From assembly GCF_009659535.1 (NCBI RefSeq), contig NZ_VJZZ01000004.1:1-64000 (forward strand): a stretch of 64,000 nt of DNA, given 5' to 3'. Made by a program: the position numbers and the translations under genes. Positions within the stretch are counted from its first letter, which is position 1. Each line of letters starts with the position of its first letter. The notes beneath the pieces were generated by a model. The model saw only the letters and a program-made list of their open reading frames with translations, did no database searches and was not told where the DNA came from. The stretch comes from Aggregicoccus sp. 17bor-14 (GTDB lineage: Bacteria > Myxococcota > Myxococcia > Myxococcales > Myxococcaceae). This document shows, in pieces, positions 43,245 through 49,381 of this stretch.

Positions 43245-43280
43245 CCCTCACCCTGACCCTCTCCCAGAGGGAGAGGGGAC
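43245..43280. repeat. REP-like 36-bp repeat, copy 1
   Basis: A self-complementary element (CCCTCACCCTGACCCTCTCC, then CAGAGGGAGAGGGGAC) in the gap between lysC and the nucleotidyltransferase-fold gene. It matches 46782-46817 at 33 of 36 positions. Similar CCCTCTCC/GGAGAGGG repeats are scattered in many proteobacterial genomes. Confidence 0.75.
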
Positions 43281-44135: not shown

Positions 44136-44422
44136 TTGCCAAAGCTAGGGACGGGGTCATTTCCCGGGAGCCTGCGCGCCCCTTGTACGGCCGTGCAGCG
44201 TCCGAGCGGGCAAGGCGACAACGACCTCCCGCATCGGGCACAATGGCGCGGAATTCCCCGGCCGCCGCACAAACCCGCGAAACTCCCCAGCTTTTGACCT
44301 ATTTCGCGGTCCGCTTTCTGTTTTTAGGGGGTGCGGTGTCCATAGGGAAAACCAGGACGGCCCGCCGGGGGACGTGCTGGGAAGCGGCCGGCAATGCTGC
44401 CGGCGCTGCCGAGGAGAGATCG

Positions 44423-45415
44423 ATGCTTCGCAAGAGCCTGCTGTCTGGTGCCACCGCCGCCCTGCTGCTGTCCGCCTGCCAGCCCGCGGACGAGGGGGAG
44501 CCGTTCCGCGAGGGCCTGCCCTCCACCGAGACGGCGGCCGTGAACGTGCCGTCCGTGTCCGGGCAGAGCGTGAACGACGGTCGCGTGCAGGCGATGGGCG
44601 GTCAGGGCCAGATCGCGGACCTCTATCAACTCACCCGCGGCGCGACGGCGCTGGTCAACGGCGGCACGGTGGCCGTGCTCACCCTGCTCGAGAAGATCAC
44701 CGACCACACCCCGACCAGCGTGAGCGGCGACACGGCCGTCTGGGGCCCGTACACCGACGACCTCGCCCCCAACACCTGGAAGCTCAGCGTCACCCGCACT
44801 GCGGACGACACCTATACCTACGCCCTCGAGGGCAAGGCCAAGGCGGCGGACGACTCCGCCTACGTCACGGTGCTCTCCGGCACGCACACCGTCGCGCGCG
44901 ACGGCTCCGGGGCGCGCCTGAAGCACTTCGGCTCGGGCACCTTCACCGTGGACTGGGACAAGGGGGCGACCCTTGCCGAGCACGACAACAACGTGGGCTC
45001 GGGCCTCTTCACCTACTCGCGCCTCGCTCCCGGCGCCGAGGCGAGCGTCGCGGTGAAGTTCACGCAGATCCGCGATGACAGCGGCCGCCGCGTGGATGCC
45101 GACTACAGCTACAAGGCCACTCCGCGCGCCGGTGGGGAGTTCGTCTTCGTCCAGAACAAGAACGTGGATGCGAACCCGGGCCTCGAGCGCATGACCGTGA
45201 AGAGCCGCTGGCAGGCGGGCGGCGCGGGCCGCTCGGACGTGCGGCTCTCCGGCGGTGACCTGGGCGCCGGCGCCTTCACCGTGAGCGAGTGCTGGGACAC
45301 GAACTTCATCAGCCGCTACTACAACGCCCAGTACCCGGGCGCCCCCGCGGGCTACGGCTCCGAGGACGCCAACTGCGTCTTCACCACCGCGTCGTACGCT
45401 GCCGCGCTGCCGTAG
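44423..45415 (+). CDS. Lipoprotein A of the caspase module
   Basis: 330 residues from the ATG at 44423, with GAGGAGAG upstream. The signal peptide ends LLSAC (Cys19). The mature protein is beta-rich with no family I recognise. It shares spaced motifs with the lipoprotein at 48410: LY..TR, LLEKI/LLEGI, WGPY, SRW, GGAG, LSGGD and ECW. It is therefore a paralogue placed at the other end of the same gene group. The ECF sigma gene begins 26 nt after its stop. The 287-bp upstream gap contains a possible TTGACC -35 (44294-44299) but no convincing -10. Confidence 0.85.
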   Translation: MLRKSLLSGATAALLLSACQPADEGEPFREGLPSTETAAVNVPSVSGQSVNDGRVQAMGGQGQIADLYQLTRGATALVNGGTVAVLTLLEKITDHTPTSVSGDTAVWGPYTDDLAPNTWKLSVTRTADDTYTYALEGKAKAADDSAYVTVLSGTHTVARDGSGARLKHFGSGTFTVDWDKGATLAEHDNNVGSGLFTYSRLAPGAEASVAVKFTQIRDDSGRRVDADYSYKATPRAGGEFVFVQNKNVDANPGLERMTVKSRWQAGGAGRSDVRLSGGDLGAGAFTVSECWDTNFISRYYNAQYPGAPAGYGSEDANCVFTTASYAAALP

Positions 45416-45441
45416 CCGGTAGCCCCCCGAGTCGAGCGCGC

Positions 45442-45993
45442 GTGACGGCCAGCCCCCGGCCTGCGTTGCAAGTGGTCGGTGGCCGTCGCGAAGCGCGCGA
45501 CGGCGACCGGCAGGCCTTCCTGCGCGCGATGTACGAGACCCACGGCGGCAGCGTCTACGGGCGCTGCCGCTACCTCTTGAAGGACCCGGACCGGGCGGAG
45601 GACGCGATGCAGGAGGTGTTCGCCCGGGCGCTCACGCATGCCGACGCCTTCCGCGCCGAGGCCTCTCCCCTCACCTGGCTGATGAAGATCGCCACCCACC
45701 ACTGCCTCAACCAGCTGCGCAGCGAGCGCGCCCCGTGGCGCGCGTGGTTCGAGCGCGACGCGGCGGCCGAGCCCGAGGGGCACGGCGGCCCGCAGGTGCA
45801 CGAGACGCGCGACCTGGTGCGCAGCCTGCTCTCGCGCGTGGACCGGGAGACGCAAGCCGCGGTGGTGCACTACCACGTGGACGGCATGACGCTGGAGGAG
45901 GTGGCGGCGCTGCTCGGGCGCTCCGTGCCCACCATCCGCAAGCGCCTGGAAACCTTCGCGGCGCTCGGCGGCGCGGAGGTGGCCCTGCGATGA
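45442..45993 (+). CDS. ECF-type RNA polymerase sigma factor
   Basis: 183 residues from a GTG start. Region 2 (FLRAMYETHGGSVYGRCRYL, DRAEDAMQEVFARAL, PLTWLMKIATHHCLNQLRS) and region 4 (MTLEEVAALLGRSVPTIRKR) are clear. ECF factors direct RNA polymerase to a small regulon after release from an anti-sigma factor. The stop overlaps the anti-sigma start (ATGA). The genes around it are the most likely targets, but no promoter motif could be verified. Confidence 0.93.
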   Translation: MTASPRPALQVVGGRREARDGDRQAFLRAMYETHGGSVYGRCRYLLKDPDRAEDAMQEVFARALTHADAFRAEASPLTWLMKIATHHCLNQLRSERAPWRAWFERDAAAEPEGHGGPQVHETRDLVRSLLSRVDRETQAAVVHYHVDGMTLEEVAALLGRSVPTIRKRLETFAALGGAEVALR

Positions 45994-46757
45994 GCACGCA
46001 TCCCTCCGCATGGACGCTGCACCGCCTGCACGCAGGCGAGCGGAACTTCGCCGGCGCGGACGAAGCGCGCGAGCACGCGGCGAGCTGCGTCGCGTGCCGC
46101 ACAGCGCTGCAGGCGCACGTCGCGCAGCAGGAGCAGTTCGAGGCCTCGGTGCCCTTCGCGCGCTTCGAGGCGGGTGTGCTCGAGCGCGCGGCCCCGAAGC
46201 AGCGCGTGGCCGTTCCGATCGGCCGCAGGCTCGCACCGCTCGCGGCGATGGCGGCGGTGCTGCTCGTGGGCGTGGCGGTGGTGCCGCAGCTGATGCGCGA
46301 GCCCACGCATGGCAACCGCATCAAGGGCGGCGACGCGGTATCCGAGCTGCGCATCGCCGGTGCCGGGGGCGCGCAGCAGCGCGTGGCCACGCCCGGCGAG
46401 CCTGAGGCGCTCGCGGCCGGAGAGCGCGTGCGCCTCGGGTACGCCGCACTGCAGGGCGAATACGTGCTCGCCGTGTCGGTGGACGCTGCGGGCGTGGTGA
46501 GCGCGCTCTACCCAGAGACCGGGGAGAGTCTTCCGGCACAGGTGGGCGCGGGCCTGCAGTACCTGCCCGACAGCCTCGAGTTCACCGGGACGGGCCTCGA
46601 GCGCGTGGTGCTCGTGCGCAGCCGCCGGCCGCTCACCGTGGAGAGCGTGCGCGCGGCGGCGGAACGGGCCTTCGAGCGGGCCGGTCGGAACGTCTCCTCG
46701 ATGGGCGCGCTCGACGTTCCCGGTGAGCAGACGCAGTGGCTGCTGGTGAAGCCGTGA
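45990..46757 (+). CDS. Zinc-type anti-sigma factor with DUF4384-like C-terminus
   Basis: 255 residues. The N-terminal HAASCVAC (H29-x3-C33-x2-C36) is the zinc anti-sigma motif, and it is followed by a membrane helix (about 81-100). The outer part (GERVRLGYAALQGEYVLAVS, then VSALYPETGES) resembles DUF4384, a domain often linked to bacterial caspases. The protein should hold the preceding sigma factor at the inner membrane and sense something in the periplasm. The ATGA overlap with sigma and GTGA overlap with the caspase gene point to one translational unit. Confidence 0.9.
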   Translation: MSTHPSAWTLHRLHAGERNFAGADEAREHAASCVACRTALQAHVAQQEQFEASVPFARFEAGVLERAAPKQRVAVPIGRRLAPLAAMAAVLLVGVAVVPQLMREPTHGNRIKGGDAVSELRIAGAGGAQQRVATPGEPEALAAGERVRLGYAALQGEYVLAVSVDAAGVVSALYPETGESLPAQVGAGLQYLPDSLEFTGTGLERVVLVRSRRPLTVESVRAAAERAFERAGRNVSSMGALDVPGEQTQWLLVKP

Positions 46758-48397
46758 GAGGGACGCAGAAAACGCGATCATCCCTCACCCTTTCCCTCTC
46801 CCAGGGGGAGAGGGGACTCTTCGCCCTCCTGGCCACGGTGGTGGTGCTGTTCTCCTTCACTGCTTCGGCGCAGGCGCTGCGGCGCTTCGCGCTCGTGGCG
46901 GGGAATGACTCCGGGGGAGATGGCACGCAACCCCTGCTCTTCGCCCGCGAGGACGCGCGCAGGATGCACGGGCTGCTCACGCGGCTCGGCGGCGTGCAGC
47001 CCGAGGACTCGCGGCTCCTATTGGACGCGAGCGCCGACGAGGTGCTCTCCGCGCTCGGCTCGCTCGAGGTGCGCGCGCGCGAGGCCCGCGCCCGCGGCGA
47101 GCGCACTGCCCTCTTCGTCTACTACTCGGGCCACGCGAAGGACGGCGCGCTGCGGCTCGGCCGCTCCGAGCTCGCCTTCTCCGCCTTCAAGGCGCGGCTC
47201 GCCCAGTCCCCTGCGGACATCCGCATCGCCATCTTCGACTCCTGCCGCTCCGGCGCGCTCACCCGCACGAAGGGCGCGCGCCGCGCCCCTGCCTTCGAGG
47301 TGGAGAGCGGCCCCGCGCGCGAGGCACAGGGCCTGGTCATCCTCACCTCCAGCGCCGCGGACGAGGACAGCCAGGAGTCCGACTCGCTCGGCGGCAGCTA
47401 CTTCAGCCACCACCTGGGCAGCGGGCTGCTCGGGGACGCGGACCGCTCGGGCGACGGCCGGGTGACGCTGTTCGAGGCCTACTCCTACGCGTACGAGCGC
47501 ACCGTGGCGGACACCGCCGAGAGCGCGGCCGGCGCGCAGCACCCCACCTTCAGCTACGACCTCGCGGGCAACGGCGACCTCGTGCTCACGGATCTCTCGA
47601 GCCGCGCCGAGGGCCTCGTGCTGCCCGGCGCCGCCCCCGCGGGCGCGTACTACTTCGTGGACGGGCGCGGCTTCGTGGTGGCGGAGATCGCCAAGGCGGA
47701 AGGCGCCGAGCGCCGCGTGGCGCTCGCGCCCGGGCGCTACCGCGTGAAGCGCCGCCTGCCGGACCACCTGCGCGTGGGCGAGGTGGAGGTGCGCGGCGGG
47801 CAGACGGCGGTGCTCGAGGAGTCCCGCCTGCGCGACACGCCCTTCACCGACGACCCGGTGAAGGGCCTGATGCTGCGGCGCTCGCAGTCGCACTGGACGG
47901 TGAGCCTCGCGGGCGGCTACCAGTCCTTCTTCGACGGCCCCACGCGCGAGCAGCTCTTCCTGTCCGTGCCGCTGGTGGGCGCCGAGGCCACGCTGCAGAA
48001 CTACTTCCGCCGCGACTGGCTGTGGAGCCTGGACGTGGCGGTGGGCGGAACGCGCGCGCAGCTCGCGCTGCCCACGCTCGAGGGCGCGGAGTACCGCTAC
48101 TCGGTGCTCAGCCTCGGCACCTCGCTCGTGGCCGAGTGGCCCCTGGGCCGCTGGGCTCCCTTCGCCGGCGCGCGGCTGAGCTACCTCATGCTCGCGCGCG
48201 ACTTCACGGACGGCTCGCTGCCGGACCAGCACTACGCCGTGGTGAGCCCGGGCGTGGTCGCGGGCCTGCGCTACCGGCTCCTCGAGCGGCTGGATCTCAC
48301 GCTGCGCGGCCGCGTCCACTACCTGCGCTACGACGTCGACGCACAGCGCTCCCTCGGCTACGGCGAGGGCGCGCTGCTGATCACGTACGCCCTCTGA
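46754..48397 (+). CDS. Secreted caspase-like (C14) protease with beta-barrel-like C-terminus
   Basis: 547 residues from a GTG that overlaps the anti-sigma stop (GTGA). A signal-peptide-like helix (about 22-41, ending SAQA) precedes a caspase fold. Catalytic His127 is in VYYSGHAKDG and Cys164 in IFDSCRSGALT. An acidic DADRSGDGRVTLFEA stretch looks like a Ca-binding loop. The last 190 residues or so alternate hydrophobic/polar like an outer-membrane barrel (VSLAGGYQSFF, LWSLDVAVGGTRAQLAL, LRYRLLERLDLTLRGRVHY). The first 20 or so codons include a REP-like repeat, so the true start may lie a little further in. Substrate unknown. Confidence 0.85.
   Translation: MRGTQKTRSSLTLSLSQGERGLFALLATVVVLFSFTASAQALRRFALVAGNDSGGDGTQPLLFAREDARRMHGLLTRLGGVQPEDSRLLLDASADEVLSALGSLEVRAREARARGERTALFVYYSGHAKDGALRLGRSELAFSAFKARLAQSPADIRIAIFDSCRSGALTRTKGARRAPAFEVESGPAREAQGLVILTSSAADEDSQESDSLGGSYFSHHLGSGLLGDADRSGDGRVTLFEAYSYAYERTVADTAESAAGAQHPTFSYDLAGNGDLVLTDLSSRAEGLVLPGAAPAGAYYFVDGRGFVVAEIAKAEGAERRVALAPGRYRVKRRLPDHLRVGEVEVRGGQTAVLEESRLRDTPFTDDPVKGLMLRRSQSHWTVSLAGGYQSFFDGPTREQLFLSVPLVGAEATLQNYFRRDWLWSLDVAVGGTRAQLALPTLEGAEYRYSVLSLGTSLVAEWPLGRWAPFAGARLSYLMLARDFTDGSLPDQHYAVVSPGVVAGLRYRLLERLDLTLRGRVHYLRYDVDAQRSLGYGEGALLITYAL
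46782..46817. repeat. REP-like 36-bp repeat, copy 2, inside caspase 5' end
   Basis: Matches 43245-43280 at 33 of 36 positions. If translation starts at 46754 it is read as TLSLSQGERG, just before the signal-peptide core of the caspase-like protein. Confidence 0.75.
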
Positions 48398-48409
48398 ACC
48401 GGTGACCCC

Positions 48410-49381
48410 ATGAGACACCTCCTCCTCGGCGCGCTCGTCCTCGCTTCCCTCGGCTCCTTCGGCTGCGGCGGAGACTTCTCCAACGAGGACCTCGAGTTCC
48501 TCAACGCGCTGCCCGAGCGCAAGGTGCTCGCCGCCGCCCTGCCGGACGCGCCGCAGAACGCGGCGGCGCTGGATGGGAGCGTGAGCGCGCTCGCGCTGGG
48601 CGAGACCTCCAAGCTCTACGCGGACACGCGCCGCGTCTCGACCGAGTTCAACCGCGGCGTGGACGGGCTGCTCGCGCTGCTCGAGGGCATCCGCAGCGTG
48701 CCGCCCACCACGCGCGCTCCGGGCGCCCGCACCTGGGGTCCCTACCCCGACAAGCAGCACCCCGGCATGGACGTGCGCTTCCTCATGACGCGGCAGCTCG
48801 CGCGCTTCACCTACTCGCTGCAGTACCGGCGCACCGGCGAGGGCGAAGACGCGTGGTGGTCGCTCATCGAGGGCGAGTTCAACGCGTCCGCCGGGATTCG
48901 CAAGGGCGAGGGCAGCGTGAGCCTGCTCATCTCCGAGGCGCGCGCCCGCGGCTACGCGCAGGGGGACCTCTCCGGCCTGGACACGCTGAGCATCGGCTAC
49001 CAGACCCTCACCCAGCCGGTGCGCGTGGAGGAGATCTTCGACTTCGCGGCCGGCACCACCGGCCCCTCCGAGGTGCGCTACACCTACCGCGCCTTCACGG
49101 ACGGGCCCGGCGAGATGCACTTCGTCATCCGCGACACCCAGGCCACCCCGGGCACGGCGCTCGAGACCCTGGACATCACCAGCCGCTGGACGGCGTCGCA
49201 GGGGGGCGCGGGCTCGGTGCTGGTGCTCAGCGGCGACTACGCCGGAGCGCGCAGCGTGGAGTGCTGGAACGGCGCCGGCCAGACGGTGTTCGAGCGCGCC
49301 AACTGGGACCCCTTCGGCGGCTCCGGCGAGCTGCGCGCCTGCCCGGACCTCTCGGCCTTCGGCGCGCTGCCGGGAACCTGA
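48410..49381 (+). CDS. Lipoprotein B of the caspase module
   Basis: 323 residues. The signal peptide ends SFGC (Cys19), and the mature protein is beta-rich. It is paralogous to the lipoprotein at 44423 (shared WGPY, SRW, GGAG, LSG, ECW motifs in the same order). It starts 12 nt after the caspase gene, so it is probably cotranscribed. No family is recognised. The next gene, rpoZ, has its own promoter-like sequence. Confidence 0.85.
   Translation: MRHLLLGALVLASLGSFGCGGDFSNEDLEFLNALPERKVLAAALPDAPQNAAALDGSVSALALGETSKLYADTRRVSTEFNRGVDGLLALLEGIRSVPPTTRAPGARTWGPYPDKQHPGMDVRFLMTRQLARFTYSLQYRRTGEGEDAWWSLIEGEFNASAGIRKGEGSVSLLISEARARGYAQGDLSGLDTLSIGYQTLTQPVRVEEIFDFAAGTTGPSEVRYTYRAFTDGPGEMHFVIRDTQATPGTALETLDITSRWTASQGGAGSVLVLSGDYAGARSVECWNGAGQTVFERANWDPFGGSGELRACPDLSAFGALPGT

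Follow-up and report, generated by a model that had tools for sequence, protein, structure and literature searches.

A conserved operon of Myxococcota encoding an ECF sigma factor, a zinc-type anti-sigma factor, a caspase-barrel protein and two homologous lipoproteins, with a candidate site for anti-sigma factor cleavage

Examination of the window, i.e., the entire 64,000-nucleotide stretch of DNA analyzed here, revealed five adjacent genes on the forward strand, as are the features of the operon described below, namely those encoding a lipoprotein termed LipA (44423–45415), an ECF sigma factor (45442–45993, GTG start), an anti-sigma factor (45990–46757), a caspase-barrel protein (46754–48397, GTG start) and a second lipoprotein, LipB (48410–49381). 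A gap of 26 nt lies between the LipA and sigma factor genes and one of 12 nt between the caspase and LipB genes, with 4-nt overlaps joining sigma factor to anti-sigma factor (ATGA) and anti-sigma factor to caspase (GTGA). This layout of five co-directional genes had been claimed in a preliminary description of the region and is borne out by the coordinates. Regarding the gene identities proposed at that time, the sigma factor and caspase assignments pass the Pfam cut-offs and the DUF4384 assignment of the anti-sigma factor remains sub-threshold; the caspase, considered simply as secreted, does contain a caspase domain but also ends in an outer-membrane barrel that had been overlooked, and the two lipoproteins, correctly recognized, proved to be homologous to each other.

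The sigma factor, a protein of 183 residues, matches PF04542 (E 2.5e-16), PF08281 (E 8.6e-8) and TIGR02937, each above cut-off, and as a small protein with only sigma70 regions 2 and 4, belongs to the ECF sigma factors. The neighboring anti-sigma factor comprises an N-terminal zinc domain, a single transmembrane helix and a DUF4384-like periplasmic domain. The HxxxCxxC motif that places the protein among the zinc anti-sigma (ZAS) factors is found in the small N-terminal domain as H29-x3-C33-x2-C36 (46074–46097), with H29, C33 and C36 being conserved in the alignment. Moreover, zf-HC2 was found in 14 of 26 orthologues (E ≤ 0.01), and the anti-sigma profile yields weak matches to DdvA, RsiW and the ChrR ZAS domain. 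As for the outer domain, DUF4384 (PF14326) scores 22.3 bits in the window protein (E 1.4e-4), below the cut-off of 27, whereas 14 of the 26 orthologues match this family at E ≤ 0.01. The preliminary description had considered this domain as tying the regulator to the protease, a connection that holds. Indeed, each of the three DUF4384 matches in this genome is flanked by an ECF sigma factor gene on one side and a caspase on the other, and when 20 weak anti-sigma homologues were selected on anti-sigma similarity alone, with neighbors being ignored, a caspase ORF was found at a distance of 0–4 nt in 18 instances and at 414 nt in a nineteenth, with the remaining homologue presenting no caspase within ~4 kb. 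Separately, a 991-residue CHAT-domain protein (PDB 8rot, chain B) weakly matches the zinc anti-sigma region of the profile (E 0.13), and could possibly represent a direct fusion of an anti-sigma factor and a caspase-like protein.

The product of the fourth gene contains a Caspase/Peptidase C14 domain (PF00656; E 8.9e-10; 39.1 bits as compared to a cut-off of 21.4) with a conserved His/Cys dyad. Catalytic His127 (47132–47134) is present in 87 of 88 aligned caspases and catalytic Cys164, within a DSC motif (47243–47245), in all 88, while Asp162, a metacaspase-like residue, is found in 85 of 87. Based on this D162-x-C164 center only, a basic P1 proteolytic specificity is predicted. An AF2 model built from 29 orthologues (pLDDT 82.6) includes a signal-peptide helix (residues 17–37), the caspase domain (42–270), a small beta domain (277–355) and eight long strands (380–546). 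When this model served as a Foldseek query, OmpA and NspA were returned at the top, followed by metacaspases and caspases. Independent of the structure model, the sequence profile matches NspA (E 4.7e-4) and metacaspase-1, while the Opacity and OMP_b-brl families (PF02462 and PF13505) each match three of the 29 orthologues. With its eight C-terminal amphipathic strands and signal peptide, the protein thus contains an OmpA/NspA-type 8-stranded beta-barrel (47891–48391). We therefore infer that it is an outer-membrane protease, the caspase domain of which faces the periplasm by ordinary topology. The n-region of the signal peptide also includes a REP-like element translated in frame (46782–46814); this palindrome occurs in 183 genome copies (≤2 mismatches), as compared to none for the reversed control, with another copy in the window being found at positions 43245–43277.

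LipA and LipB, each with a lipobox cysteine at position 19, are paralogues that share 29% identity (E 1e-16), as well as invariant W-G-P and C-W motifs; in LipA, the invariant residues are Cys19, W107-G108-P109 and C290-W291. The AF2 model of LipA (pLDDT 90) consists of a long helix and ~13 beta strands. No convincing relative of either lipoprotein was found in Pfam, among PDB sequences or by Foldseek, with the LipA model giving no Foldseek match at E ≤ 0.001. VIA comparisons of LipA gave middling matches to porins and to OspA, a lipoprotein with an extended single-layer beta sheet; the Z score for OspA, 9.1 (3.8 Å over 164 residues), equals those of porins, with the rmsd being poor.

Of 145 genomes from the order, 127 contain a match to the caspase at E ≤ 1e-10, with paralogues being counted, and in most genera, alignments span the barrel at 47–72% identity. 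In the regions fetched, the order LipA-sigma factor-anti-sigma factor-caspase-LipB, on one strand and with the same short overlaps, is retained across the order. HMM searches found the five-gene set in many other Myxococcota families, with LipA being relocated behind LipB in some loci (L226, L229 and L233). Among the carriers that could be named are Corallococcus, Myxococcus, Pyxidicoccus, Archangium, Hyalangium, Citreicoccus and Anaeromyxobacter. The preliminary description had made its proposal dependent on the genes being kept together in relatives, and together they remain. Conservation of the predicted operon is well beyond chance, and a chance neighborhood is ruled out by the conserved synteny. 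A locus from an entry titled ‘Comamonas sp. KCTC 72670’ (BNCN01000006.1; L149) contains a Myxococcus-like operon with 69% caspase identity, and is probably mislabeled.

This genome also holds paralogous sets. A second sigma factor/anti-sigma factor/caspase-barrel set (L005, L090), the caspase of which is 31–35% identical, lies ~21 kb to the right of the window (G000:C4:85370–86914), and more sets of this kind are found at C18, C12 and C2. In G044 and G047, second copies (L102 and L103) encode a full caspase-barrel beside an anti-sigma factor of 79–99 residues that includes neither transmembrane helix nor outer domain, with no adjacent LipA or LipB being found, such that the caspase can persist without a membrane substrate. 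Decayed copies were identified at five loci (L094–L098). In four of the genomes involved (G106, G116, G117 and G119), a deletion has joined the beginning of LipA with the final part of the sigma factor. The anti-sigma factor retains an open reading frame in these genomes, whereas only a truncated caspase or none at all was found, and LipB was not found. In the fifth (G118), the caspase is interrupted by ~2.4 kb containing a transposase-like ORF, read as IS66. PilP of Myxococcus xanthus (PDB 3jc8) matches its G117 counterpart at 171 of 171 positions and its G118 counterpart at 169 of 171. Accordingly, either M. xanthus or a species sharing its PilP sequence belongs to the decayed group. Decay in the M. 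xanthus clade may explain the lack of study of this system in the model organism.

Upstream of the operon, an ECF-type promoter, CTTTCTGTTT-N12-GTGTCC (44314–44341), lies 82 nt 5' of the LipA start. In relatives, the upstream block is conserved as TTTCYGTTT-N12-GTGTC with constant spacing, changing to N13 in more distant families. The motif gave one match in the window, as compared to none in 100 shuffles, and in a pattern search of the 6.9-Mb genome, the strict motif occurred once. When two mismatches were allowed, two genome matches were obtained, the same number as for the reversed control, and so chance level elsewhere in the genome. Across 96 genomes of the family, there were 101 promoter matches and five reversed-control matches, with ~69 of the former lying at this operon by hand tally. 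As the promoter is essentially unique in the genome, transcription of its own operon is most likely the main task of the sigma factor, and for this genome, an autoregulated, one-operon regulon offers the simplest reading of the strict motif. In a small number of MAG lineages, promoters resembling this one are found before other genes encoding secreted proteins. These extra sites (L260–L279; G049, G051, G132–G136 and others) lie mostly 1–60 nt before genes encoding exported proteins, among them four pectin-acetylesterase-like lipoproteins, a polysaccharide lyase, a CotH protein and cytochrome-like proteins, and may belong to the sigma factor of the operon or to a paralogue.

As such, the assignment of the sigma factor, anti-sigma factor, caspase-barrel and two homologous lipoproteins to a single predicted operon behind one conserved ECF-type promoter is well supported, and the operon, the barrel and autoregulation, considered jointly, are very probably correct. 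One of the two possibilities raised in the preliminary description, namely that the caspase is induced by the sigma factor, is in turn well supported by the conserved promoter, given its constant spacing and single strict match in the genome.

The other possibility, namely cleavage of the anti-sigma factor by the caspase, was considered at the level of conserved residues. Some nine residues outside the transmembrane helix, the anti-sigma factor contains a candidate cleavage motif, R110-I-K112-G113-G114 (46317–46331). Position 112 is Lys in 85 and Arg in one of the 86 aligned proteins, such that all 86 present Lys/Arg-Gly at this site. A similar motif is found in the caspase itself, where K173-G174 (47270–47275), in a loop following the catalytic cysteine, represents a candidate autoprocessing site; here, Lys is found in 85 and Arg in two of 88 aligned sequences, for 87 of 88 with Lys/Arg-Gly. 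The two motifs read T-R-x-K-G in the caspase loop and R-x-K-G-G in the anti-sigma factor. The caspase loop (residues 166–192) is modeled at pLDDT <50, even though its residues are conserved. In one locus (L093), Arg replaces Lys in both proteins, and the residue at P3 is common to 48 cognate pairs, as compared to a shuffled mean of 41.5 (p 0.0004, with phylogeny uncontrolled). When Lys-Gly was sought within the 30 residues following the transmembrane helix in 13 zf-HC2 proteins of the genome, none was found among those with a clear helix; the sole caspase-linked protein among these 13 controls carries A-R-G-G. The motif being a general feature of zinc anti-sigma factors is ruled out by its absence after the helix in those of this genome that are not linked to a caspase. 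At the same time, one anti-sigma homologue retains Lys-Gly although the 4 kb around it contain no caspase (L255), and Lys-Gly also occurs in caspases for which no anti-sigma neighbor was detected (L088).

Metacaspases cut after Lys or Arg (Asplund-Samuelsson, 2012; PMC3501461), a specificity also described for orthocaspases and metacaspases in a second report (PMC6426788). There is, moreover, precedent for a protease of this fold acting on a protein that inhibits an ECF sigma factor, since in the type III-E CRISPR system, the caspase-like Csx29 cuts Csx30, the inhibitor of CASP-sigma (PMC10028731). That system differs, however, in that Csx29 is a cytoplasmic, RNA-activated TPR-CHAT protease, Csx30, unlike the anti-sigma factor considered here, is no transmembrane protein of the zinc type, and neither barrel nor lipoproteins are involved. 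Given the conserved Lys-Gly, the Lys/Arg specificity and the Csx29/Csx30 precedent, cleavage at K112 is a well-motivated hypothesis. The prospect that the caspase directly cleaves the anti-sigma factor is judged to fall slightly short of even; Lys-Gly in the anti-sigma factor could instead mark the structural start of the outer domain.

In the circuit proposed, the caspase would act as the dedicated site-1 protease of its own anti-sigma factor, cutting between Lys112 and Gly113 just outside the inner membrane, with Lys173-Gly174 of the activation loop serving in autoprocessing or autoinhibition. Once the outer domain was released, intramembrane and cytoplasmic proteases would be able to free the sigma factor. 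With the caspase at the outer membrane and its target ~9 residues from the inner membrane, direct cleavage would require release, mislocalization or bridging. The lipoproteins might provide such a bridge, or the caspase might act before or without membrane insertion, in which case, speculatively, loss of the tether would itself be the signal. A barrel or lipoproteins unable to reach the outer membrane would then provide the trigger, upon which an untethered caspase would meet the anti-sigma factor, with LipA and LipB acting as sensors or restrainers. A self-contained, autoregulated envelope circuit with the caspase as site-1 protease is considered to have an equal chance of being right or wrong, whereas the mislocalization trigger is speculative and unlikely. 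The fullest version, in which a barrel-tethered caspase serves as dedicated site-1 protease, cuts at a Lys-Gly mirroring its own loop site, reports tether loss and does so nearly phylum-wide in Myxococcota, is offered tentatively and probably claims too much.

The main alternative to cleavage by the caspase, and one considered to be rather doubtful, is that the caspase is output and not trigger. Here, a generic site-1 protease would free the sigma factor, which would then induce the caspase-barrel and lipoproteins, the targets of which would be damaged proteins of the envelope or other cells. Such a role would agree with the predicted co-transcription of caspase and lipoproteins under a sigma-type promoter, with similar promoters preceding secreted enzymes in some lineages, and with an outer-membrane location, as suits an envelope or surface effector, but would leave unexplained both the Lys/Arg-Gly that the two partners conserve and that unlinked zinc anti-sigma factors lack, and the near-constant adjacency of anti-sigma factors of this class to a caspase. 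Were the Lys-Gly instead a docking or folding element, the caspase or lipoproteins could bind the anti-sigma factor without cutting, with ligand binding and a different protease providing the signal. The position of Lys-Gly immediately before the DUF4384-like domain in many members would fit this idea, as would the generality of the caspase Lys-Gly among caspases for which no anti-sigma neighbor was found (L088). Yet Lys-Gly or Arg-Gly also appears in caspase-linked anti-sigma factors other than the three of this genome that match DUF4384 (L090, L091 and L093), and the catalytic dyad is conserved. Binding without cleavage is considered to be distinctly improbable. Finally, although the caspase homology and the discussion in PMC3501461, linking myxobacterial metacaspases with cell death, might suggest that the module serves programmed death or the killing of kin, with the sigma factor arming a lethal caspase, this is very hard to reconcile with an exported, outer membrane-anchored caspase and a module retained nearly phylum-wide, Anaeromyxobacter included, and lost in the M. 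xanthus clade. A role in defense was rejected, as PADLOC returned only a sub-significant caspase match.

The pairing of sigma factor and caspase is not in itself new, since operons containing both were reported in 2012, with the relevant passage of PMC3501461 placing four of the five M. xanthus metacaspases in operons with sigma-70 factors and listing such operons in Anaeromyxobacter, Haliangium, Sorangium, Ralstonia and Fibrobacter as well. Those operons resemble the present one in that a metacaspase gene is co-operonic with a sigma-70-type factor; the passage differs in naming no anti-sigma factor, DUF4384, lipoproteins, outer-membrane barrel, promoter or cleavage motif. Because the five-gene lineage decayed in the M. 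xanthus clade, the M. xanthus operons noted in that passage most likely correspond to paralogous sigma factor/anti-sigma factor/caspase sets. The earlier statement that no system of this composition had been described thus cannot stand for the sigma factor/metacaspase pairing, but does so for the anti-sigma factor, lipoproteins, barrel and promoter, as far as that passage goes. A search of the open-access literature found no description of these components or of the cleavage motif, and a paper on the coevolution of ECF sigma factors and class-I anti-sigma factors mentions neither caspases nor DUF4384. The logic linking anti-sigma factor, lipoproteins, barrel, promoter and cleavage motif hence appears to be undescribed in the searchable literature. 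EACC2 caspase systems likewise bring caspase and ECF sigma factor genes into one neighborhood, but are cytoplasmic conflict systems with TPR, EACC2 and TRADD-N genes, for which no membrane anti-sigma factor or outer-membrane anchoring is described (PMC8195603).

The five-gene system can be described as an envelope system of the ECF/anti-sigma factor kind, in which the caspase is mounted on a barrel. As in the RseA/DegS/sigmaE system of Escherichia coli, an ECF sigma factor is held by a single-pass, zinc-type anti-sigma factor of which a first, periplasmic cut is expected, with the conserved Lys-Gly providing a candidate site-1 position for RseA-like regulated proteolysis. The two differ in that DegS is an inner-membrane serine protease, whereas here, a Cys/His caspase is fused to an outer-membrane barrel and is encoded within the same autoregulated operon, together with two outer membrane-type lipoproteins. 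DegS senses unassembled porins, to which the tether-loss signal speculated upon above can be likened.

For most bacterial caspases, no role has, to our knowledge, been established. The module considered here offers one such protein a proposed substrate, cut site, location and promoter. If the proposed circuit is true, then caspases would have a housekeeping function in the myxobacterial phylum, distinct from cell death, as proteases that signal envelope stress. This would also explain the frequent linkage of myxobacterial caspases to sigma factors, left unexplained in the passage of PMC3501461 considered, and would mean that a caspase-operated envelope stress response has been retained nearly phylum-wide in Myxococcota.
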